64,000 nucleotides of DNA from Microbispora corallina (GTDB lineage Bacteria > Actinomycetota > Actinomycetes > Streptosporangiales > Streptosporangiaceae). The notes under the pieces are model-generated. The model worked only from the letters and a program-made list of their open reading frames with translations. It did not search any database and was not told where the DNA came from. Below are positions 1,857 through 15,146 of this stretch, piece by piece; the stretch's first letter is position 1, and every line of letters starts with the position of its first letter. Where the stretch lies: contig NZ_BOOC01000015.1 in the NCBI RefSeq assembly GCF_016863035.1, forward strand, positions 1-64,000, read 5' to 3'. The position numbers and the translations under genes were made by a program.

Positions 1857-2549
1857 ATGCATGGACTGATTCAAGTGGCCGGTGTGATCGACCAGGCCGA
1901 GGCGGACCTGATCGTCGAGGAGGGCGCCGACTGGCTGGGCTTCGCGTTGCGGCTCCCGGCCAAGAACGAGGACCTGTCCGAGGCGGACGCCGCGGCGATC
2001 ATCAAGGAGATCCAGCCGGAGCACCGGGGCGTCGTGATCACCTACCTGACGGAGGCCGAGGAGATCAAGGCGTTCTGCGGGGAGCTGGGCGTCACCGCCA
2101 TCCAGCTGCACGGCGACGTGACGCCCGGCGAGCTGCGGACCCTCCGCCGCATCGCCCCCGACCTGTACGTGCTCAAGAGCCTCGTGGTCAAGCAGGACAA
2201 CGTCGACGAGCTGGCCGGGATCGTGGACGAGGCGGCCGAGTGGGTCGACATGTTCATCACCGACAGCTTCAACCCGGCCACCGGCGCCAAGGGCGCCACC
2301 GGGCTCCTGCACGACTGGTCGATCAGTGCCGAGCTGGTGCGGATCTCGCCGCGGCCGCTGATGCTGGCGGGCGGGCTGAACCCGGGCAACGTGGCGGCGG
2401 CGATCGCGGAGGTCCGCCCGGCCGCCGTCGACGCGCACACCGGTCTGGAGGACCCGGTCACCCGGCGGAAGGACCGCGTGAAGGTGCGCACGTTCGTGGC
2501 CGAGGCCCGCAGGGCCTTCGCCGAGCTGGGGACGGGTGTGGTCGTATGA
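1857..2549 (+). CDS. Phosphoribosylanthranilate isomerase-like (TrpF-like) protein lacking the catalytic Cys
   Basis: A 230-residue TIM-barrel protein. Family landmarks are present: GADWLGFAL near residue 23, IQLHGD, TDSFNPATGAKGATG with the Asp that acts as general acid in TrpF, LAGGLNPGNV, and the phosphate-site end DAHTGLEDP followed by KD. The N-terminal motif that should read KICGLT instead reads QVAGVI, so the Cys general base is missing. A standard role in tryptophan synthesis is thus unlikely. ATG 1857 follows GGAAAGGCGGG. The stop overlaps the next start by ATGA, so the protein is probably co-produced with the UPRT-like enzyme. A role in handling a phosphoribosyl intermediate, or a structural role, is inference. 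Confidence 0.7.
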   Translation: MHGLIQVAGVIDQAEADLIVEEGADWLGFALRLPAKNEDLSEADAAAIIKEIQPEHRGVVITYLTEAEEIKAFCGELGVTAIQLHGDVTPGELRTLRRIAPDLYVLKSLVVKQDNVDELAGIVDEAAEWVDMFITDSFNPATGAKGATGLLHDWSISAELVRISPRPLMLAGGLNPGNVAAAIAEVRPAAVDAHTGLEDPVTRRKDRVKVRTFVAEARRAFAELGTGVVV

Positions 2550-3217
2550 CCACCGCGACGGCGGCGGGGGTCGGCACCGTCCGCCTGCTGCCGCAGACCC
2601 GGGCCCTGCGGGCGCTGCACACGGTCATGCGCGACCGGCACGCCGGCCGCGACGAGTTCGTCACCTCGTCGGGCCGCGTCATCCGGCAGCTGATCGAGAC
2701 GGCGCTCGACCTCCTCCCGTTCGAGCCGCGCGAGGTCTGCACACCGGTGGGGCGCACCTATCGCGGGTTGCGGATGACGCCGCACATCTGCGGCGTGTCC
2801 GTCCTGCGGGCCGGGGACAGCATGGAGTCCGAGCTGCGGGCGATCGCCCCGGGGGTGCGGATCGGCAAGATCCTCATCCAGCGGGACAAGGTCACGAAAC
2901 TTCCGCACCTGTACTACGCGGCGCTGCCCGCGGACATCGACCGGCGGCACGTGCTGCTGCTGGACCCGATGCTGGCCACCGGCGGGACCGCGCTGGCCGC
3001 CATCGAGGTCCTGCTCGGCCAGGGCGTCGAGGAGGACGCCATCGTGTTCGTCACCCTGCTGTCCTCCCCGGAGGGCATCAAGGCGGTCCACGAGCGCCAC
3101 CCGCGCGTACGGATCGTCACGTCGGCCGTCGAGGAACGGCTCAACGAGAACGCGTACATGATCCCCGGAATCGGCGACTTCGGCGACCGCTACTTCGGCA
3201 CCGACGTCGTGCGATGA
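2546..3217 (+). CDS. Uracil phosphoribosyltransferase-like protein
   Basis: A 223-residue type-I phosphoribosyltransferase. The PRPP loop LLLDPMLATGGTA (about residue 135) and the uracil-binding end IPGIGDFGDRYFGTD are complete. UPRT makes UMP from uracil and PRPP. The FGDRYFGTD ending looks more like eukaryotic-type UPRT than the bacterial GDAGDR form. It is coupled by ATGA to the TrpF-like gene and sits just before the IndC-type NRPS. As I recall, a UPRT homologue in the minimycin pathway takes part in self-protection, so a pathway role is more likely than housekeeping salvage. I cannot exclude simple uracil salvage. Confidence 0.8.
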   Translation: MTTATAAGVGTVRLLPQTRALRALHTVMRDRHAGRDEFVTSSGRVIRQLIETALDLLPFEPREVCTPVGRTYRGLRMTPHICGVSVLRAGDSMESELRAIAPGVRIGKILIQRDKVTKLPHLYYAALPADIDRRHVLLLDPMLATGGTALAAIEVLLGQGVEEDAIVFVTLLSSPEGIKAVHERHPRVRIVTSAVEERLNENAYMIPGIGDFGDRYFGTDVVR

Positions 3218-3380: not shown

Positions 3381-6300
3381 ATGAACACTCCACGCACTGA
3401 AGCGCGGCGGAAAGCACCAGACAACACCTGCCTTCCCGATCTGCTCGACGCGCAGGTCCGCATGCGCCCACAGGACACGGCGGTCGTCTGCGGAGACGGC
3501 CGGCTGACCTTCCGGGAGCTCGCGGACGGCAGCGCGGCGCTCGGCGGCTACCTGCGAGAGCTCGGCGTCGCCCCCGACGACCGGGTGGGGCTCTTCGTGG
3601 AGCCCTCGCTCGACCTGATGGTCGGCGTGTGGGGAATCCTGTACGCCGGCGGGGCGTACCTGCCGCTGTCCCCGGAGTATCCCGAGGAGCGGCTGCGGTA
3701 CATGCTGGAGGACGCCCGCGTCCGGGTCGTCGTCACCCAGGACGAGCTCGTGTCCAGGCTGGCCGAGCTGGCGCCCGCCGGGACGAGGATCGTCACGCTG
3801 AAGGACGCCGACCGGCTCACCGGGCCGCCGGGAACCCACCCGGACCTGCGCCCCGGACACCTGGCGTACGTCATCTACACCTCCGGCAGCACCGGGAAAC
3901 CGAAGGGGGTGATGATCGAGCACCGCAGCATCGTCAGCCAGATGCGGTGGCTGAAGGCCGCCTACGGCATCGACCACGAGAAGACCGTCGTGCAGAAGAC
4001 GCCGATGAGCTTCGACGCGGCGCAGTGGGAGATCCTCGCGCCGGCGTGCGGCTCGGTGGTCGCCGTGGGACCGCCCGGCGTGTACCGGGACGCCGAGCGG
4101 CTGATCGACGTCATCAGGACGCACGAGGTCACCACGCTGCAGTGCGTCCCGACGCTGCTGACGGCGCTGCTGGACACCGACGAGCTGCAGACCTGCCGGT
4201 CGCTGACGCAGGTCTTCACCGGCGGCGAGGTCCTGTCCAAGACGCTCGCGACGAACTTCCTCGAGACCCTGTCCCGCTGCGAGCTGATCAACCTGTACGG
4301 GCCGACCGAGTGCACGATCAACTCGTCGGCGTACACCGTGGACCGCGCCACCGTCGGGGAGGGCCCGAACGCGATCTCGATCGGCGCCCCGGTCGACCAC
4401 ACCGAGTACCACATCCTCGACGTCGGCGGGGCGCCGGCGGCGGTCGGCGAGATCGGCGAGCTGTACATCGGAGGCGTCCAGATCGCCCGCGGCTACCTGC
4501 ACCGTCCGGAGCTGACCGCGGAGCGGTTCGTGCCGAACCGGTTCGGCGAGGGCAGGCTGTTCAAGACCGGCGACCTCGCGTACTGGAACGCCGACGGCAC
4601 GGTGCAGTTCGTCGGCCGGGCGGACAACCAGGTCAAGCTGCGCGGCTTCCGGGTCGAGCTGGACGAGATCAAGCTCGCGATCGAGACCCACGACTGGGTC
4701 AAGCACGCCGCGGTCATCGTGAAGAACGACCCGCGCACCGGGTTCCAGAATTTGATCGCCTGCGTCGAGCTGAACCCCAAGGAAGCGGCCCTGATGGACC
4801 AGGGCAACCACGGCGCGCACCACCAGTCCAAGGAGAGCAGGCTCCAGGTCAGGGCGCAGCTGTCGAACGCCGGGGCCCGGGACGACGAGGACCTCGCCGG
4901 CAGGCCGGTGATCGACCTGCCCGGCAGGGAGGCGACCGCGAGGCAGCGCGCGCTGGCGTTCGCCCGCAAGACCTACCGGTTCTACGAGGGCGGGCAGACC
5001 AGCCGCGGCGACATCCTGAAACTGCTGGCCAGGCAGGTGACGGGCGCGCCCTCCCGCGGGCTCGGCACCCTGGGCCTGGAGGAGCTCGGCGAGATCCTGC
5101 GGCACTTCGGGCAGCACCTCAGCGAGGAGCGGCTGCTGCCGAAGTACGCGTACGCCTCGCCCGGCGCGCTGTACGCGACCCAGCTGTACCTCGAGGTCGA
5201 CCGGGTCGGCGGCCTCGCCCCCGGCCTCTACTACCACCACCCGGTGCACCACCGGCTCGTGCTGCTCAGGCCGGCGGCCGAGGGGCCGGAGCCGCGGGTG
5301 AAGCTGCACTTCGTCGGCAAGAAGCGGGCGATCGAACCGGTCTACAAGAACAACATCCGCGAGGTCCTCGAGATCGAGACCGGGCACATGGTCGGCCTGT
5401 TCGAGGAGGTGCTGCCCGAGTACGGCCTGGACATCAGGGCCCTGGAGTACGCGCCGGCCACGAAGGAGCGCCTGGGCTGCGCCGAAGAGGACGACTACAT
5501 CGGCACGTTCGAGCTGGTCCCCTACGCGGGGCCCCGCACGGACGAGGTCGACGTCTACGTCCAGGCGCATCCCGGCAAGGTCCCCGACCTGCAGGCCGGC
5601 CAGTACGCCTACGAGAACGGGCGGCTGCGGCTGATCTCCGAGGAGCTCATCCTCAAGAAGCACGTCATCGCCATCAACCAGCAGGTCTACGACCGGGCCG
5701 GCATCGGCGTCTCGGTGGTCAGCAGGAACGGCGAGGACTGGCTGCGCTACATCGACCTGGGCCGCACGCTGCAGCACCTGTCGATGAACGACCTCAACTT
5801 CGGGTTCATGTCGTCCGGGTACAGCTCGAAGACCGGCGATGACCTGCCCTCAGCGCGCCGGATCGACGCCATCCTGCGCAGTTGCGGCCGGCCCACCGGC
5901 CCGTCGTACTTCTTCGTCGGCGGCCGTGTGAGCGACGCGCAGCGGCTGAGCGAGGGGATGAAGGAGGACGCGGTCCACATGCGGGGCCCGGCGGAAATGA
6001 TCAGGGACGACCTGATCAACTTCCTGCCGGACTACATGATCCCCAACAAGGTCGTCGTGCTGGACCGGCTGCCGTTCACGGCCAACGGCAAGATCGACGT
6101 CAAGGCCCTGGCCGCGTCGGACAAGACGAACGCGGACACCTCCGACCAGCCGTTCGTCGCGCCGCGGACCGTCACCGAGCGCCGGATCGCCGAGCTGTGG
6201 AAGAAGGCGATGAAGCGGGAGACGGTCTCGGTGCGGGACGACTTCTTCGCCTCCGGCGGGAACTCGCTCATCGCGGTCGGCCTGATCAACAGGATCAACC

Positions 6301-7454
6301 GGGAGTTCTGCGCCTCCGTGCCGCTGCAGGCGCTGTTCGAGTGCCCCACGGTGGAGAAGCTCGCCCGGCTGGTCGACGGGCGCGAGCAGGAGGAGTGCAC
6401 GCGGCTGGTGCCGTTGCAGCGGGAGGGGGCGGACAACCCCGTCTACTGCTGGCCCGGTCTCGGCGGCTACCCCCTCAACCTGCGCCTGCTGGCCGGCGAG
6501 ATGGGCGCCGAGCGGCCCTTCTACGGCGTGCAGGCGTACGGCATCAACGCCGGCGAGGTCCCGTACGCGACCATCGTGGAGATGGCGGCCGAGGACGTCC
6601 GGATGATCAGGCGGCGCCAGCCGGCCGGTCCGTACACGCTGTGGGGGTACTCGTTCGGCGCGCGCGTCGCGTTCGAGGCCGCCTACCAGCTGGAGCAGGC
6701 CGGCGAACAGGTGGACCACCTGTTCCTGATCGCGCCGGGCTCGCCCAAGGTCGACGCCGGGGACCCCGCGCACGCGCACGAGGCCGGCTACCACAACAGG
6801 GCGTACCTGACGATCCTCTTCTCGGTCTTCGCGGGCACGATCAGCGGGCCGCTGCTGGAGCGGTGCCTGGCCGAGGTCCGGGACGAGGACGGCTTCGCCG
6901 CCTTCATCCACCGCCACTTCCCCGACCTGGACGTCGACCTGGTGCGCCGCATCATGCGGGTGGTGGGCCAGACCTTCGAGTTCACGTACACCTTCCGCGA
7001 GCTGACCCGGCGGCGCATCCAGGCGCCGATGACGGTGTTCAAGGCGAGGGGTGACGACTACTCGTTCCTGGAGAACAGCAGCGGTTACTCGGCCACGCCC
7101 CCGGTCGTCGTCGATCTGGAGGCCGACCACTACGCCCTGCTCAGGGAGCAGGGGATCGGCGAGCTGACCGCCGCCATCCGGGACCGTCTCGGCGCCGACA
7201 AGGAGATCATCATGCCGCACGTCAGCATCAAGCACTTCCCGGTGTCCCTCACCGAGCAGCAGCACTCCGACCTGGTCGCGGCCGTGACCGCGGCGATGAC
7301 GAGCGCCTTCGGCTGCGACGAGGGCGCGGTGTCGATCATCCTGGAGCCGGTCGCGAAGGAGCTGTGGGACCAGCAGGTCTACATCCCCGAGATCGTCAAC
7401 CGCAGGCACGAGCTGGGCAAGCTGCCGAACTACGGCCCCGCGGCCTCGAACTGA
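3381..7454 (+). CDS. indC: Indigoidine synthetase-type NRPS (A-Ox-T-TE) with C-terminal PptA-like tautomerase domain
   Basis: A 1357-residue single-module NRPS. Order: adenylation domain with [12 protein letters not shown] near residue 165; an FMN oxidase domain (about 490-830) inserted inside it, opened by the stretch [18 protein letters not shown] typical of BpsA/IndC; adenylation end [14 protein letters not shown] near 897; carrier protein GGNSL with Ser962 for phosphopantetheine; thioesterase GYSFG with Ser1091. IndC enzymes activate L-glutamine, cyclise and oxidise it, and two units give blue indigoidine. BpsA-type proteins end near residue 1280; here about 79 residues follow, starting [10 protein letters not shown], closely matching the PptA/4-oxalocrotonate tautomerase family. 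GGGGGA precedes ATG 3381. The downstream IndA-type gene starts 10 nt after the stop. Confidence 0.92.
7200..7214 (+). promoter_or_regulatory. Internal ribosome binding site and start codon for a free tautomerase
   Basis: Within indC, AAGGAG (7200-7205) is followed by six bases and an in-frame ATG (7212) whose next codon is Pro. Initiation here would give an 80-residue protein, [10 protein letters not shown] onwards, the usual size of PptA. Tautomerases of this family use an N-terminal proline exposed by removal of Met as catalytic base. The fused domain alone could not provide that, but an internally initiated product could. The signal is seen directly; its use is inference. Confidence 0.5.
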
Positions 7455-7464
7455 GGGAGTGACG

Positions 7465-8412
7465 ATGACTGGAGATCGGCACGGGGGCATCCCGCTGGTG
7501 TACGCCGAGGAGGTCGCGGACGCCCTCGCCGAGGGCCGGCCCGTGGTGGCGCTGGAGTCGAACGTCATCACCCACGGACTGCCGTACCCGGACAACGCCG
7601 CGACGGCCAGGAAGGTCGAGGAGGCGGTCCGCGCGGGCGGCGCCGTCCCGGCCACGATCTGCCTGGAGGACGGCCGGATCAAGGTCGGCATGACCGACCG
7701 GGACGTCGACCGGTTCGCCTCGACCGGCGGCATCCCCAAGGTCAGCAGCCGGGACATGCCGGTGGTCCTGGCCCAGGGCGGGCCCGGCGCGCTGACGGTC
7801 GCCAGCTCGGTCGTGGCGGCCGAGCTGGCCGGCATCCCGTTCTTCGCGTCGGCCGGCATCGGCGGGGTGCACCGGGGCGCCGAGAAGACGATGGACATCT
7901 CCTCCGACCTGATCCAGTTCACCCGGTCGAAGGTGGCGGTCGTCTGCGCCGGGGCCAAGAGCATCCTCGACCTGGCCCTGACCCTGGAGTACCTGGAGAC
8001 CCACTGTGTCCCGGTGGTGTCCTACCGGTCGGACGACTTCCCCGCGTTCTACTGCGTGTCCAGCGGCATCCGCAGCCCCCAGCGGCTGGACGACGAGCGG
8101 GTGATCGCCCGGGCGGTGGAGAGCCACTGGGCGCTCGGCAACCGGAGCGCGTTCCTGATCACCACTCCCGTGCGGGAGGAGGACGCGATCGACACCGCCG
8201 ACGTGGACGCGGCCATCGCCGGGGCGACGGCGGCGGCGGAACGCGACGGCGTGCGCGGCAACGCGATCACGAAGTACCTGATGCGCGCGGTCGACGCCGC
8301 CACCGAGGGCCGGTCCTCCCGGGCCAACATGTCCGTGCTCGTCAGCACGGCCGAGGTGGGCGGCCGGCTGGCCGCCGCGCACGCGCGGTACCTCCGGGAG
8401 ACCGGAGCGTGA
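7465..8412 (+). CDS. indA: Pseudouridine-5'-phosphate glycosidase family protein (IndA/PsuG type)
   Basis: A 315-residue protein of the PsuG/IndA family, which reversibly makes or breaks the C-glycosidic bond between ribose 5-phosphate and a pyrimidine-like base. All known active-site positions of E. coli PsuG have counterparts: Glu31 (VALESN), Lys92 (GIPKVSS), Asp148 (SSDL), Lys165 (CAGAKSILD, the Schiff-base lysine) and Asn266 (RGNAITK). It should be active. AGGGAG sits five bases before ATG 7465; a GTG six bases earlier is the less likely start. It follows the NRPS directly. In indigoidine loci IndA is an accessory gene, and in C-nucleoside pathways such as minimycin this family joins ribose 5-phosphate to the NRPS product. 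Confidence 0.9.
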
Positions 8413-8475: not shown

Positions 8476-9666
8476 TCACCCCGACGCCGCGGGCGCGGTT
8501 TCCCCTGGCCGCAGCCGACGGTCCATCTCGGCGACCGTGGCCGCCCAGATGTCCGAATCGGGATCGATGACCGCGAAGTGGTCTCCCGCCTGCTCGATGT
8601 AGGTCACGTCGTCGCCGGCCCCGCGCGCCCGGGTGACGTAGCGGCGGTTGAAGTCGACCAGGTCGAGATCGTCGCCGAGCCCCTGGACGACGAGCTGCGG
8701 GACGCCCATCGGGAGGCGGCTCATCGGATCGGCGGCCGCGTACACCTCGGGGACCTCGGCCCGCGGGCCGCCGAGGGCGGGGGGGACGGCGCCCGTCCCG
8801 ACCCGTCGCCGTTCCCCCTCGGCGAGGTCGACCACGCCGGCCAGCGAGACCGCGAGCGCGACGCCGGCGCCGTCGGCCGCCGCGCGCAGGGCGAGCTGGC
8901 CGCCCGCCGAGTGTCCGGCGACCGCGACACGGGCGAGGTCGAGCGGGAGATCGCCGGCCACGGCCGCCAGGCGGGAGATTCCCGCCGCGACGTCCGCGGT
9001 GGTGGCGTCCCAGCCGTGCCGGTCCGGGCGGCGGTATTCGAGGTTCCATGTGGCGTACCCGCGGCTGGCCAGGTCGACGGCGAGCGCGTCCATCAGGTCG
9101 GCGGCCCAGATCGACCGCCAGTAGCCCCCGTGGACGAGCACCGCCACGGGCAGCGGCCGGCCGTCGTGGTCCGGCGGCAGGCGCAGCTCGCCCCACTGCT
9201 CGTCGCCCGGGCCGTACGGGACTCGGCGCGCCGGGTGCCGCAGACGGTGCACGGCGTGCCGGACGGCCCACGCGAGGCCCCCGAGGCCGCGGCCGTGGAG
9301 ATGCGCGGCGCCGCCCGCGGGCTCGACCGGCCCGGTGACGGCCATGTCGTACCACACGGTCCGCGGCCCGGGAAGGGGATCGGAGATCAGCCGGCGGGCG
9401 CCGGCGTCGGGGCCGGGCAGGGCCACGACCGCGCACGACTCGTCCCGGGCCGCCTCGCCGAGCACGTCCCGCAGCCCCTCCGCGTCGGCCACGGCCACCA
9501 GCGACCCCGGGACGCCCAGCCGTTCCCATTCGGTCTCGGCGACCCGCCGGACCAGCGCGGAGTCCGCCACCAGCCCGGGGCCCGCCACCACGAGGACGCG
9601 CACCGCCGCCCTGTCGCCACCCGTCACATCGGTTCCTCTTCCGGTCGGCCGCCGCGGCCCGCTCAT
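8476..9666 (-). CDS. Alpha/beta hydrolase, probable kynurenine formamidase
   Basis: A 396-residue protein. The C-terminal two thirds is an alpha/beta hydrolase with oxyanion motif HGGYW (about residue 177) and nucleophile elbow GHSAGG (about 252), the pattern of HGG-type kynurenine formamidases, which hydrolyse N-formylkynurenine to kynurenine. It is the last gene of the tryptophan operon and supplies the only otherwise missing step. The first ~130 residues (RVLVVAGPGLV ... HLHGRGLGGLAWAVRHAV) look like a degenerate flavodoxin-like or type II dehydroquinase-like domain. ATG 9666 overlaps the upstream stop as ATGA. GTG 9627, preceded by AGAGGA, is an alternative that gives 383 residues. Confidence 0.75.
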   Translation of the reverse strand: MSGPRRPTGRGTDVTGGDRAAVRVLVVAGPGLVADSALVRRVAETEWERLGVPGSLVAVADAEGLRDVLGEAARDESCAVVALPGPDAGARRLISDPLPGPRTVWYDMAVTGPVEPAGGAAHLHGRGLGGLAWAVRHAVHRLRHPARRVPYGPGDEQWGELRLPPDHDGRPLPVAVLVHGGYWRSIWAADLMDALAVDLASRGYATWNLEYRRPDRHGWDATTADVAAGISRLAAVAGDLPLDLARVAVAGHSAGGQLALRAAADGAGVALAVSLAGVVDLAEGERRRVGTGAVPPALGGPRAEVPEVYAAADPMSRLPMGVPQLVVQGLGDDLDLVDFNRRYVTRARGAGDDVTYIEQAGDHFAVIDPDSDIWAATVAEMDRRLRPGETAPAASG

Positions 9667-10697
9667 CGGGGCGCCGTCGCCACGTCGCCCGTCCCGTCCC
9701 TCCCGAGGAACCGCAGCGCGTTGCCGCCCAGCAGCTTCGCGCGCTGCCCCTCGTCGAGGAAGTCCGCCGCGCGGACCACCCGCCCGGCCGGGCGCTCTCC
9801 CAGCGGGTAGGGGTAGTCGCTGCCGAGGAGGATACGGTCCTCGCCCATCGTGTCCACGAGCAGGCGCAACGCGGCGGGGTCGAACACCACGCTGTCGACG
9901 TGGAAGCGGTCGACGTAGTGGCTCGGGGGAAAGGACGACCGGCCGCGGACCAGGTCGCCGCGGCGGTGCCAGGCGTTGTCCGCCCGCCCCAGCCAGAAGG
10001 GGAAGCTGCCGCCGCCGTGGGCGAAGCAGATGCGCAGCGAGGACGGCACCCGGTCCAGCACGCCGCCGAGGATGAGCGCCAGGACGGACAGGTGCGTCTC
10101 CGCCGGCATGCCGGTCAGCCAGCGGGCCATCCAGCGGTCGAGCCGCGGCCCGCCGGGCATGTCCCACGGGTGCACGAAGACGGGCGCGCCCACCTCGGCG
10201 CAGTGCCGCAGGAACGCCTCGACGCCCGCGTCGTCGAGGTCTTTGTCGCCGACGTGGTTGCCGATCTCGACGCCCGCGTGGCCGGCGGCGAGGCAGCGGT
10301 CCAGCTCCGCGCAGGCCGCGTCGGGGTCCTGCAGCGGCACCTGGCAGAACGGCACCAGCCGATCCCCGCCGCCCGCGGTCACCTCCAGCGTCAGGTCGTT
10401 GAAGATCCTCGACACCTTGACGGCCTGGTCCGGCGAGCGCTCGTAGGAGAAGAACACCGGCGTGGGGGACACCACCTGCACGTCCACGCCGTCGGCGTCC
10501 ATGTCGGCCAGGCGCGTCTCCGGGTCCCAGCACTCGGCGCCGACGGGCCGGAACTCGGCGTCGCCGATCATGATCATGGCGGCCCGCTCCGAGTCGACGC
10601 GCAGCCAGGGCCAGCCGGAGCCGCCGCACCGGGCGGACAGCTCCGGCCACCCCTTCGGCACGACGTGCGTGTGCACGTCGACGACCGGCCCCGGCAT
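9663..10697 (-). CDS. nbaD: 2-amino-3-carboxymuconate-6-semialdehyde decarboxylase
   Basis: A 344-residue amidohydrolase-fold enzyme matching ACMSD, which decarboxylates the ring-opened product of 3-hydroxyanthranilate to 2-aminomuconate semialdehyde. Zinc-site motifs are all visible: DVHTHVVP at the N-terminus, FVHPWDM, CFAHGGGSFPFWLGR and LLGSDYPYP. The start shares one base with the dioxygenase stop (TGATG), so it follows the preceding enzyme of the pathway directly. Sending flux through ACMSD means the route leads to catabolism rather than to quinolinate and NAD. Confidence 0.92.
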   Translation of the reverse strand: MPGPVVDVHTHVVPKGWPELSARCGGSGWPWLRVDSERAAMIMIGDAEFRPVGAECWDPETRLADMDADGVDVQVVSPTPVFFSYERSPDQAVKVSRIFNDLTLEVTAGGGDRLVPFCQVPLQDPDAACAELDRCLAAGHAGVEIGNHVGDKDLDDAGVEAFLRHCAEVGAPVFVHPWDMPGGPRLDRWMARWLTGMPAETHLSVLALILGGVLDRVPSSLRICFAHGGGSFPFWLGRADNAWHRRGDLVRGRSSFPPSHYVDRFHVDSVVFDPAALRLLVDTMGEDRILLGSDYPYPLGERPAGRVVRAADFLDEGQRAKLLGGNALRFLGRDGTGDVATAPR

Positions 10698-11221
10698 CAG
10701 CCCCTGCCCGGGTGCAGGGCTCCGCACGCGGCGCAGGTGCGGGCGGCCTCGTCGCCGTAGAACGCCTGGAACACCGGCGGCAGGTCGGTGACGATGTCCC
10801 GCACCTGCAGTTCCACCTCGTGCACGAGGCCGCCGCAGGCGGGGCAGTACCACTGGAACCTCTCCAGCGTGCCCTCCTCGCGGACCCGCTCGACCACCAT
10901 GCCGATCGAGCCCGCCTGCGGCCGCTGCGGCGAGTGCGGCACGTTCCCCGGCAGCATCCACATCTGGCCCTCGCGGATGTGCACCGTGCGCGGTCCGCCG
11001 GGCGTCATCAGGTTGACGTGCATGTCGCCCTTGATCTGGTAGAAGAACTCCTCGTACGGGTCGACGTGGTAGTCGGTGCGCTGGTTGGGGCCGCCCACCA
11101 CCTGCACGATGAAGTCCGCCCCGCCCGGGAACATCTCCTTGTTGCCGACCGGCGGCTTCAGCAGGTGCCGGTTCTCCTCGATCCAGCCCGGAAAGCTCAC
11201 CGGCTCCGCGATGTCGCTCAT
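10697..11221 (-). CDS. nbaC: 3-hydroxyanthranilate 3,4-dioxygenase
   Basis: A 174-residue cupin. It opens the aromatic ring of 3-hydroxyanthranilate using Fe(II) and O2. The iron ligands are recognisable in [12 protein letters not shown] (His, Glu) and [10 protein letters not shown] (His). The C-terminus carries two CxxC pairs, CPACGGLV and CAACGALH, the rubredoxin-like second iron site typical of the bacterial enzyme. ATG 11221 overlaps the upstream deaminase stop by ATGA. Confidence 0.95.
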
Positions 11222-11643
11222 TTCCTGACTCCTTCCGGCAGTAGCGCCACGGCCTGTATCTCGATCAGCAGATGGGGGTGGGGGAGCTGGTGCACCGCCA
11301 CCGTGGTGCGGGCGGGTCCGGCCTCGTCGAAGTACTCCGCGTAGACCTCGTTGTAGCCGCCGAAGTCGTTCATGTTCACCAGGTAGGCGGTGACCTGCAC
11401 CAGGTCGGACAGGTCGGCCCCGACGGCCCGCAGGATGTCCCGGATGTTCTCGATCACGGCGCGGGTCTGCGCGCGTATGTCGAGCGAGGTGGTGCCCATC
11501 GGGTCGGCCTCGGCGCCCGCGATCGTGTTGTCGGGCCGGCGGCTCGACGTGCCGGAGACGAAGGCGAAGCCGCCGGCGACCTTGACGTGCGGGAAGCGGC
11601 CGCGCGGAGCGGCCTTGCCCGGCACCGTCCGCGCCCCGCTCAC
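11218..11643 (-). CDS. nbaF: RidA-family 2-aminomuconate deaminase
   Basis: A 141-residue YjgF/YER057c/UK114 (RidA) protein, with the family signatures [28 protein letters not shown] and a C-terminal LLIEIQAVA strand. In this operon its job should be to deaminate 2-aminomuconate to 4-oxalocrotonate with release of ammonia, as for NbaF/AmnD. GTG 11643 overlaps the stop of the decarboxylase gene (GTGA). Assignment to the deaminase rather than a general imine hydrolase rests on context. Confidence 0.85.
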
Positions 11644-12422
11644 GACGCCGCCCTCAGCGAGGCGGTGCCCAGCCGCTCGACCACGGCCCGCACGTGATCC
11701 CCGGCCCGCAGGGGGACCGCGGCGGTCGCCGCCCCGGCGAGGACGACCCACCCCTCCCGCAGCCGGACGCCCCGCCGGCCGGCCAGCCGGACCGCGGCGT
11801 CGAGGGCGCGGCGCGGATCGCCGAGGATCGCCGCCGTCGAGCCGGTCTGCACGACCCGGCCGCCGACCTCCAGCAGCACGCCGAGGTTGTCCAGCCCGTC
11901 CGGCACCGGCCGCCAGGGGCCGACGACGAAGCCCGCCGCCGAGGTGTTGTCGGCGATCACGTCCGGCAGCGAGAAGGAGAAGCCGTCGTAGCGCGAGTCG
12001 ATCAGCTCGATCGCCGGGGCGACCGCCCGCACCGCCGAGGCGAGGTCGCCGACCGGCTCCCCGGGCTCCGGGCTGCGCGACATGAGGAAGGCCACCTCGG
12101 GCTCCACCCGCGGATGGATGTAGCGGCCCAGGTCCACCAGGCCGCCGTCGTCGACCCGCATCCCGTCGGTGAGCCGGCCCCAGATGACCTCGTCGACGCC
12201 GACCTGCGCCATCTTGGCGCGGCTCGTCAGCCCCATCTTCAGGCCGACGAGCCGCTCGCCGCGGGCGAGCCGCCGCTCGACGAGCGCCTCCTGCACCGCG
12301 TACGCGGCGGCGGGGCCGACGCCGGCCGCCGCGGCGAGCCGGGGGATCGGCGCGGCCTTCGCCGCCGCCTCGTCGAGCCGGTCGGCGAGCTCCTCGACGT
12401 CGGGTGGCGTCTGTCCGGTCAT
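11640..12422 (-). CDS. nbaG: 4-oxalocrotonate decarboxylase
   Basis: A 260-residue member of the hydratase/decarboxylase family. The sequence [17 protein letters not shown] with WGRLTDGM is the form seen in DmpH/XylI/NbaG decarboxylases, as opposed to the hydratase paralogue encoded at 14346. Metal-site PRVEPEVAF is present. It converts 4-oxalocrotonate to 2-oxopent-4-enoate and normally works in a complex with the hydratase. It overlaps the aldolase gene by ATGA. Confidence 0.85.
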
Positions 12423-13432
12423 CGGGATCCTCCCCGCGCGAGGTCGAGCGCGACGTCGACGATCATGTCCTCCTGGCCGCCGACCATCCGGCGCCGGCCC
12501 AGCTCGACCAGGATCTCCCGGACGTCCACGCCGTACCGCTCCGAGGCGCGCTCGGCGTGGCGCAGGAAACTGGAGTAGACGCCCGCGTAGCCGAGGGACA
12601 GCGTCTCCCTGTCGACGCGCACGGGCCGGTCCTGCAGTGGCCGCACGATGTCGTCGGCGGCGTCCATCAGTGCGAAGACGTCGCAGCCGTGGCGCCAGCC
12701 GTACAGGTCGGCGACGGCGGCGAAGACCTCCAGCGGCGCGTTGCCCGCCCCGGCGCCCTGCCCGGCCAGCGAGGCGTCGACCCGGGTGGCGCCGTGCTCG
12801 ACGGCGACCACGCTGTTGGCCACGCCCAGCGACAGGTTGTGGTGCGCGTGGACGCCCACCTCGGTGGCGTCGTCGAGCACCTGACGGTAGGCGTCGACCC
12901 GCTCGGCGACGTCGCGCATCAACAGCCGGCCGCCCGAGTCGGTGACGTAGACGCAGTGCGCGCCGTACGACTCCATCAGTTTCGCCTGCGCGGCGAGGCC
13001 GGCCGGGTCGTTCATGTGCGCCATCATCAGGAAGCCGGACACGTCCATGCCGTTCTCCCGGGCCCACGAGATGTGCTGGGCGGAGATGTCGGCCTCGGTG
13101 CAGTGGGTGGCGATCCGCACGCTCGTCACGCCGAGGTCGCGGGCGGCCCTCAGATCGGCGATCGTGCCGATGCCGGGCAGCAGCAGCGTGGTGAGCCGCG
13201 CGTTCCGCACGACGGACGCGGCGGCGGCGATCCACTCCGCGTCCGCGGCGGCGCCGTGGCCGTAGGTGACGCTCGATCCCGCGAGCCCGTCGCCGTGGGC
13301 CACCTCGATGGCGTCGACCCCGGCGGCGTCGAGGACGGCGGCGATCTCGCGGACCTGGTCCACCGTGTACCTGTGGGCGATGGCGTGCATCCCGTCGCGG
13401 AGCGTCACGTCCTGGATGTAGAGCCCGTTCAT
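12419..13432 (-). CDS. mhpE: 4-hydroxy-2-oxovalerate aldolase
   Basis: A 337-residue DRE-TIM/HMGL-like aldolase. Substrate and metal residues are clear: [10 protein letters not shown] at the N-terminus and the [14 protein letters not shown] metal motif. It splits 4-hydroxy-2-oxovalerate into pyruvate and acetaldehyde and channels acetaldehyde to the dehydrogenase encoded immediately upstream. Overlaps are ATGA on both sides. Length matches DmpG/MhpE/BphI. Confidence 0.95.
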
Positions 13433-14349
13433 GCGCGTCGCACCTCCACGAGCCGCTCGGCCGTCCGCAGCGCGGCCGACGTCATGATGTCGAGGTTGCC
13501 GGCGTATTCGGGCAGGTGGTGCCCGGCGCCGGAGACCTCCAGGAAGACGGACACCTGGAGCCCGGAGAACGTCCGGCCCAGCGCCGGCACGTACGCCTCG
13601 ACCGGGTCGAACTGCACCTCCTGCTTGAGGCGGTAGCCGGGCACGTACTCGCGCACCGCGTCCACCATGGCGGCCACCGACCGCGCGACGGCCGTACGGT
13701 CCGCGCCGGCGTCGGGACACAGGCAGTAGACGGTGTCCCGCATGAGCGGCGGAGGGTCCGCGGGGTTGAGCACGATGATCGCCTTGCCGCGTCCGGCGCC
13801 GCCGACCACCTCGATCGCCCGCGCCGTGGTCTCGGTGAACTCGTCGATGTTCGCCCGGGTGCCCGGCCCCGCCGACCTCGACGCGATCGAGGCGACGATC
13901 TCGCCGTACGCGACCGGGGTGACCCGGCCGACGGCGGCGACGATCGGCACGGTCGCCTGGCCGCCGCACGTGACCATGTTGACGTTCGGTTCGGCGAGAT
14001 GCCGGTCGAGGTTGACCGGCGGCACGACGTACGGCCCGACGGCGGCCGGCGTGAGATCGACGACGGTCCTCCCGTGGGCGCGCAGCGCCGCGTCGTTGTC
14101 CCGATGGGCGCCGGCCGAGGTGGCGTCGAACACGAGGCGGACGTCGGCGAACTCCGGCATCGCGATCAGCCCCTCGACGCCCTTGTCGGTGGTGGCCACC
14201 CCGAGCCTGCGGGCGCGGGCCAGGCCGTCGGAGGCGGGGTCGATTCCGGCCATGGCGACCATCCGCAGCGACGCCGACAGGCGCATGATCTTGATCATCA
14301 GGTCGGTGCCGATGTTGCCCGACCCGATGACGGCCACACCGGTGCTCAT
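13429..14349 (-). CDS. mhpF: Acetaldehyde dehydrogenase (acylating)
   Basis: A 306-residue partner of the aldolase. The NAD-binding loop [18 protein letters not shown], the catalytic Cys in [11 protein letters not shown], and the [18 protein letters not shown] segment are all typical of DmpF/MhpF/BphJ. It converts acetaldehyde, CoA and NAD+ to acetyl-CoA, completing the pathway into central metabolism. It overlaps its neighbours by 4 nt on each side. Confidence 0.95.
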
Positions 14350-15146
14350 GACGTCTCCTCCCGATCGCCGAAGCGGGTCCGGACGGACCCGAGGCCGGAT
14401 ATCCGCGCCTCGTAGGCGGCGCCGGGCGTCACCGGCACCATCGGTCCGAGCGCCCCGGACAGCACGACGTCGCCGGCGCGCAGCGGACGCCCGGCCGCGG
14501 CCAGGGTCGCGGCCAGCCACGCCACGGCGTGAGCCGGGTTGCCGAGGCAGGCGGCGCCGGCGCCGACCGAGACGGGCTCGCCCGCGTGTTCGAGGACCGC
14601 CCCGCACAGCCGCAGGTCGACGTCCGCGATCCGGCGAGGTGTCGTGCCGAGCACGAACAGGCCGCTGGAGGCGTTGTCGGCGACGGTGTCCACGATGGAG
14701 ATGTCCCAGCCCGCGACCCGCGAGTCGACGATCTCGATCGCGGGCAGCAGGTGGTCGGTCGCGCGGATCACGTCGGCCACCGTCACCTGCTCGTACGGCA
14801 GGTCCGTGCCGAGCACGAACGCGATCTCCGCCTCCACCCGCGGCTGCAGCAGCCGGCCGAGGTCCGCCTCGGCGCCGTCGTCCACGGCCATGTCCGCGAA
14901 GAGCACGCCGAAGTCGGGCTGGTAGACGCCCAGCGACGCCTGCACGGCGGGGTTGGTCAGGCCGATCTTCGCGCCGACCGGCCGGCGGCCCTCCCTCGTC
15001 CAGTGCCGCACCTGCGCCTGCTGCACGGCGTACGCCGCGTCGACGTCCCCCTCGGGAAGCAGGCCGCCCCGCAGCGGCGGGCACGGCGTCGCCGTGTCGT
15101 ACGCCTCGCGCAGGACGCTCGCCGCCTGTTCGATGTCGACGGTCAT
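14346..15146 (-). CDS. mhpD: 2-keto-4-pentenoate hydratase
   Basis: A 266-residue paralogue of the decarboxylase at 11640, with the hydratase-like sequence [17 protein letters not shown], the metal motif PRVEAEIAF and AIEIVDSR. It adds water to 2-oxopent-4-enoate to give 4-hydroxy-2-oxovalerate. The two paralogues share order and spacing with other 3-hydroxyanthranilate and catechol meta-cleavage operons, where they form a complex. ATG 15146 overlaps the aldehyde dehydrogenase stop. Confidence 0.85.

Follow-up and report, generated by a model that had tools for sequence, protein, structure and literature searches.

A conserved internal start codon suggests that a fused indigoidine synthetase–tautomerase gene of Microbispora corallina also encodes a free tautomerase

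Can a tautomerase that depends on a free N-terminal proline work as the tail of a nonribosomal peptide synthetase (NRPS), or does the gene for such a fusion also yield the tautomerase on its own? Members of the tautomerase superfamily use the amine of their N-terminal proline, Pro1, as catalytic base. Fusion of a tautomerase to the indigoidine synthetase IndC is itself already known, having been described for IndC of S. chromofuscus (PMC3992020), for the minimycin NRPS MinA, which has a 'Tau domain' (PMC8724604), and in a survey of Streptomyces and myxobacteria in which fused and discrete forms of tau both occur (PMC12766979). An NRPS-appended tautomerase also appears in an account that ties catalysis to the N-terminal proline (PMC5818174), and the indigoidine operon of Leisingera contains a separate 4-oxalocrotonate tautomerase (4-OT) gene (PMC5014874). 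In the portions of the published accounts available to us, tau is treated either as an NRPS domain or as a separate gene, with no mention of an internal start or of a free product from the fusion (PMC3992020, PMC12766979, PMC8724604), and a literature search whose coverage took in few subscription journals returned no report of an internal start in indC. The new element here is the conservation of an internal start across fused homologues.

The window, that is, the whole stretch of DNA analysed, comprises 64,000 nucleotides of the M. corallina genome (contig NZ_BOOC01000015.1, positions 1 to 64,000). Its ORF at 3381-7454 is predicted to encode a synthetase of the IndC/BpsA type with a PptA-like tautomerase (tau) at its C-terminus, and has the following features:

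3381-7454, plus strand: fused indC-tau gene, encoding a 1357-aa NRPS with a C-terminal tautomerase (ORF and Pfam).
6438-7190, plus strand: thioesterase region of IndC (PF00975 from residue 1020; AlphaFold model).
7200-7205, plus strand: AAGGAG, the Shine-Dalgarno (SD) element of the predicted internal start (from the sequence; conserved in fused junctions).
7212-7214, plus strand: predicted internal ATG start of the free tautomerase (ATG, GTG or TTG in 59 of 59 fused homologues and in the additional locus L152).
7215-7217, plus strand: CCG, the Pro1 codon (Pro invariant in alignments).
7212-7454, plus strand: tau, the predicted free PptA-like tautomerase (80 aa; 79 after Met removal, with Pro1 exposed).

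The 149.9-kDa fused protein has Pfam matches to AMP-binding (residues 23-373), PP-binding (935-998), Thioesterase (1020-1128) and Tautomerase (1279-1329), the first three of which follow the single-module order A-(Ox)-T-TE of IndC/BpsA. The oxidase domain of IndC had no Pfam match in this ORF, and its presence is presumed from the family; the AMP-binding_C match at 872-904 is distant from the A domain, as fits an inserted oxidase. In an AlphaFold model of the thioesterase and tail (6384-7451; mean pLDDT 78.6), the last thioesterase helix (model residues 255-269) stops at 7190, just 5' of the linker; confidence is low at model residues 273-276, and pLDDT is below 50 at residues 331-356 of this monomer model. 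The preliminary description of the locus had placed AAGGAG, six bases and ATG-CCG precisely at the junction, which the sequence at 7200-7217 confirms: a six-base spacer (7206-7211) lies between AAGGAG and ATG, and AAGGAG, ATG, CCG and the TGA stop (7452-7454) share the reading frame that opens at 3381. The Met in question is residue 1278 of the fused protein, and the predicted internal product has 80 aa and a mass of 8.72 kDa, or 8.59 kDa without Met. A scan of 6900-7500 that covers actinomycete promoters only in part detected no sigma-70-like promoter or terminator-like site.

The PptA-like identity proposed earlier for the tail was borne out by profile and fold comparisons. PptA was the best-scoring NCBIfam model (E = 2.3e-18), although its 66.5 bits fall short of the curated cut-off of 83; the 4-OT model matched more weakly (E = 1.6e-5). 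Pfam Tautomerase PF01361 scored 28.1 bits, above its cut-off of 22. E. coli YdcE (PDB 1gyj) was the top PDB match of the tail in the profile search (E = 5.2e-14, residues 1-72) as well as in the fold comparison (Foldseek E = 1.4e-4, TM-score 0.80/0.83; mean pLDDT of the tail model, 80), the likeness consisting in a beta-alpha-beta fold with a proline at its start; this proline was invariant in our alignments A1 (9 rows) and A3 (31 rows). YdcE, however, is a free-standing protein, whereas here the same fold also forms the tail of a 150-kDa synthetase.

We consider it likely that this one gene is translated both into the fusion and into a separate 8.6-kDa tautomerase that begins with proline. 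Ribosomes starting at 3381 would make the 150-kDa indigoidine-type synthetase with its tautomerase tail, and those entering at AAGGAG/ATG in the junction would make the free PptA-like enzyme. Because the Pro1 amine exists only where proline comes first after Met removal, and the proline nitrogen inside the fusion is an amide, the free, internal-start product should be the active form; we infer that it is translated in the cell and active, and that the fused form is inactive. The superfamily also includes 346 sequences without Pro-1, of unknown function (PMC5818174), and the fused tail could therefore in principle act in another way. The direct results presented here are the site, its conservation, a constraint at the nucleotide level and, in relatives, a gene arrangement that could plausibly precede fusion.

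Homologues were collected with the tail as query, and the collection consists of tau-bearing loci. Tail searches, in overlapping sets, covered the class (394 genomes, hits in 11 at E 1e-6), the genus (15 genomes, hits in 10 at 1e-6), the order (345 genomes, hits in 23 at 1e-8) and a second genus, probably Streptomyces (392 genomes, hits in 39 at 1e-8); a profile search of the phylum, overlapping with these (396 genomes, hits in 11 at 1e-12), added no further fused locus. A scan of genome contigs, limited to the 80 best among 121 relatives, used a pattern beginning [MV]PH, so that a Met or Val residue was partly ascertained in those loci; by the description of the tool, any Val codon should have been admitted. 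Among 142 loci read by script, with exact duplicates excluded, 60 were fused, 48 were unfused with a thioesterase match within 1.5 kb, and 12 were free tau. One locus labelled as fused by the script, L036, has a thioesterase match divided between two frames and was set aside, leaving a main set of 59; with GTG and an SD-like AGGAAGG at its junction, this locus would fit the internal-start reading, which its removal therefore does not favour. Fourteen loci found later (L152-L165) stand outside the tree and the statistics; only L152 among them is fused, with ATG 5' of Pro. Nine matches from the second genus were fetched separately and none was fused, seven having indC nearby but out of frame or past a stop and two having no thioesterase match. 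The fused genes come from actinomycetes, a myxobacterium (Polyangium) and cyanobacteria.

Several long open frames were considered as fusions and rejected. In L143, L149 and L151, the thioesterase match is out of frame by its coordinates, and a scripted frame and stop check assigned these loci to the unfused class; in L160, L162 and L163, as in L161, tau is read in another frame than indC. L163 was not recovered by the scripted check for an overlapping TGA that caught L160-L162.

The junction of a single gene is weak evidence, but its recurrence in all fused homologues examined lifts it above chance. The codon 5' of Pro was a start codon in all 59 genes of the main set (32 ATG, 25 GTG and 2 TTG, the two TTG cases being sisters on the thioesterase tree), and in none of the 59 was it Ile, Ala or Leu-CTG. 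The 27 loci from whole-genome tail searches, which set no stated condition on the residue, had 15 ATG, 10 GTG and 2 TTG. Across the 25 GTG and 2 TTG genes of the main set taken together, GTC was more common than GTG overall (880 vs 422) and TTG made up 23 of 1,595 Leu codons; at the junction, Val was GTG in 25 of 25 and Leu was TTG in 2 of 2. Given Val or Leu and each gene's own codon usage, the joint log10 probability of GTG/TTG is -17.3 for all genes and -9.4 within the 27 unconditioned loci, both values being overstated by the treatment of rows as independent. Since these probabilities ignore kinship, we took a tree-aware test as the main test, on a rapidly built thioesterase-domain tree with many weak branches (114 rows: 59 fused and 55 labelled unfused). 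Among the fused genes, the residue at the junction codon (Met, Val or Leu) changed at least seven times on this tree, and the third base did not change at all. Eight other all-Val columns of the same 25 GTG genes had two to seven synonymous changes each, and among 69 columns restricted to M, V, L or I, the only ones besides the junction without third-base changes were two invariant-Met columns. The share of GTG/TTG was 100% at the junction and at most 64% elsewhere among 39 M/V/L-rich columns with at least 15 Val or Leu.

A comparable constraint extends to the SD element. Within -18 to -4, an SD match of at least four bases was present at 59 of 59 junctions vs 26% of background positions, for which we took the 28,497 codons lying in frame and upstream of the junction in the 59 fused genes. 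Matches of at least five bases marked 91.5% of the fused junctions (n = 59) and 79.6% of the separate tau starts (n = 54) vs 6.0% of the background, where matches of at least six occurred at 1.7%. ATG, GTG or TTG stood at 1,384 of the 28,497 positions, 3.7% of these with an SD match of at least six bases, and the two together were found at about 0.18% of background positions. Among 48 distinct fused junctions, A, G and G at -11, -10 and -9 were present in 45, 47 and 48, respectively; codon -4 was Lys or Gln in 39, and codon -3 encoded E, A, D or V, yet its first base was G in all 48. The linker varies in length and sequence across 24 aligned rows, although no junction of the main set lacks the SD-like match. 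Synonymous shuffling of the last seven codons (median rank of SD strength 0.58, with 4 of 59 genes under 0.1) was uninformative on this point, since Lys/Gln-Glu codons already contain the SD, and was replaced by comparison with in-gene positions and separate tau starts. Ranked by duplex energy against the other positions of its gene, the junction reached the top 10% in 39 of the 59 genes and the top 5% in 23, which is good, not extreme. Predicted mRNA folding from -21 to +15 was -4.6 vs a gene mean of -10.2 kcal/mol at 53 distinct fused junctions (Wilcoxon p = 1.2e-10, kinship uncorrected) and -5.8 vs -9.5 kcal/mol at 47 separate tau starts; fused junctions and separate tau genes are alike in how open their mRNA is. 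Start codon and SD are kept at the nucleotide level in the fused genes, as expected of a functional internal start.

The tail is not common to all IndC homologues: about half of the tau-bearing loci (55 of 114 rows, one of them, L036, doubtful) have tau as a gene of its own. The fused or unfused label changed at least nine times on the thioesterase tree, a count to which L036, labelled unfused, adds; two changes are forced by well-supported branches. In the unfused loci L160-L162, which belong to a genus within the same family as the genome of the window, the TGA of indC overlaps the ATG of tau (TGATG), and the SD of tau, AAGGAG or GAGGAG, lies within the last indC codons; the Lys/Gln-Glu of the fused junctions is therefore best read as a trace of this SD. 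The arrangement looks like a stage prior to the merging of frames. The fused gene would probably have originated from adjacent, overlapping indC and tau genes in this manner, with the tau start signal retained by selection because the free enzyme was still required.

The same junction could also be a relic, in which the old tau start survives a recent fusion and only the fused protein matters, its tail working, or not, without a free proline. The authors of the lmbN study interpret their own preserved internal start in this way (PMC4351081), a published scheme names tau a synthetase domain (PMC8724604), superfamily members without Pro1 exist (PMC5818174), and four-fold codons in nine ATG-clade genes are incompletely saturated (0.63 identical vs 0.49 expected). 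A recent origin is, however, difficult to reconcile with the range of fused genes over actinomycetes, Polyangium and cyanobacteria, with a mean amino-acid identity of 0.70 among the nine sampled ATG-clade genes, and with at least seven residue changes at the junction codon, each to another start codon and without synonymous drift, and we regard a relic as unlikely. Alternatively, the constraint may lie in the protein, if the linker requires a hydrophobic residue and Lys/Gln-Glu that by chance spell a start codon and a purine-rich SD. The confinement of junction residues to M, V and L and the Lys or Gln at codon -4 in most junctions (39 of 48) agree with this, but it does not account for a Val that is always GTG although GTC is twice as common, for a Leu that is rare TTG both times, for the lack of Ile, Ala and Leu-CTG in the 59 genes or for mRNA that is also unusually open, and it is very improbable on these grounds.

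Cleavage of the fused protein after Met would free Pro1 with no internal initiation at all, and the short, variable linker and the low model confidence at model residues 273-276 would suit a protease; the start codons, the conserved SD and the open mRNA would nonetheless be left unexplained, and no common cleavage motif was visible by eye in the linkers of 24 aligned rows, so that we give proteolysis very little credence. As to where the tail came from, window positions 9660-15084 hold, on the minus strand, what looks from the translations like a ring-cleavage operon, presumably with amidohydrolase/ACMSD-like, 3-hydroxyanthranilate dioxygenase-like, RidA-like, hydratase, aldolase and acetaldehyde dehydrogenase genes. 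A 4-OT drawn from this adjoining operon (about 9.6-15 kb), whose genes resemble ring-cleavage catabolism in our reading of the translations, might have become the tail; however, the same tail is fused to or located behind IndC in many genera and is nearer PptA than 4-OT (2.3e-18 vs 1.6e-5), and this origin, rejected here, is exceedingly improbable.

The reading put forward in the preliminary description, a fused NRPS and a free tautomerase from one gene, is the one that the comparative evidence supports, with start codon, SD and open mRNA kept while the surrounding protein drifts. The genes beside indC-tau bear on what the free enzyme might do:

1857-2549, plus strand: phosphoribosylanthranilate-isomerase-like (PRAI-like) gene, upstream (PF00697, E = 2.2e-18).
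2546-3217 (start provisional), plus strand: uracil phosphoribosyltransferase gene (MinD-like), upstream (PF14681, E = 1.3e-73).
7459-8412, plus strand: indA/minB-like gene (Indigoidine_A family), next downstream (PF04227, E = 2.5e-109).

The only match to PF14027, which we take to be the DUF4243 part of IndB/MinC-type proteins, in the same genome is partial and on another contig (L170, C32:78978-79184; 29.6 bits vs a cut-off of 27). As far as the available text of the sources goes, published fused-IndC systems have IndA-like and phosphoribosyltransferase neighbours, as here (PMC3992020, PMC12766979, PMC8724604), MinD being a uracil phosphoribosyltransferase (PMC8724604). In the minimycin scheme, the Tau domain tautomerises the released ring, after which MinB makes the C-glycosidic bond (PMC8724604). 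By analogy, free tau would likely tautomerise the glutamine-derived ring released by the synthetase, its inferred substrate, toward IndA/MinB-type C-glycosylation, a role taken from that scheme and assigned here to the free form. Since tautomerases of this family form oligomers, we tentatively suggest that free tau, with an open Pro1, might co-assemble with the blocked, tethered tau and so bring a functional tautomerase next to the exit of the thioesterase; the tethered copy would then serve as a scaffold, and the internal start would supply active subunits from one gene at a set ratio.

Two other tau loci were found in the same genome. Contig C21 holds a second fused gene (L002) with another linker and again an SD (AGGAGG) before ATGCCG. 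Its cluster (L166) includes IndA, ribose-phosphate pyrophosphokinase, FMN-reductase-like and PRAI-like genes, and PRAI-like genes stand beside both fused copies of this genome. A third tau (L003, contig C38) has no thioesterase match nearby; the locus (L003/L167) is without indC and adjoins ATP-grasp ligase-like genes. Congeners (L168, L014, L021, L022) have a similar tau behind an unfused indC, the order in L168 being a 1334-aa NRPS, tau and ATP-grasp/L-amino-acid-ligase-like genes. On C38, the synthetase may have been lost while tau remained.

If the two-product reading is correct, the active tautomerase is a hidden 9-kDa protein missed by annotation and not an NRPS domain, which would revise the view of a well-used pigment synthetase family and of the minimycin 'Tau domain'. 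Recoded genes in other hosts could silently lose the free tautomerase. A search rule also suggests itself, namely that fusions of enzymes requiring their own N-terminus should keep internal starts.

Among known systems, Cas11 small subunits reportedly arise by internal initiation within a larger cas gene; there too, an in-frame internal start gives a small protein of its own, required as a subunit, although it serves a CRISPR interference complex and is not an enzyme with an exposed N-terminal proline. A tail of this PptA/4-OT type on a synthetase of this kind is described, in the accessible parts of the sources, for IndC of S. chromofuscus, for the minimycin NRPS with its Tau domain and for Polyangium sp. 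y55x31 (PMC3992020, PMC12766979, PMC8724604). The closest precedent for the internal start is LmbN of lincomycin biosynthesis, a Streptomyces biosynthetic fusion gene that retains the ribosome-binding site of its downstream gene; there, a Western blot together with an early stop codon established the internal start, and both the full-length and the short protein were detected (PMC4351081). LmbN differs in joining a carrier protein ahead of a sugar isomerase within one gene (PMC4351081). In the available text, the LmbN start is read as the relic of a recent fusion, with no catalytic need for a free N-terminus invoked (PMC4351081); in indC-tau, by contrast, the need for a free N-terminal proline would provide a chemical reason for selection to keep the internal start after fusion.
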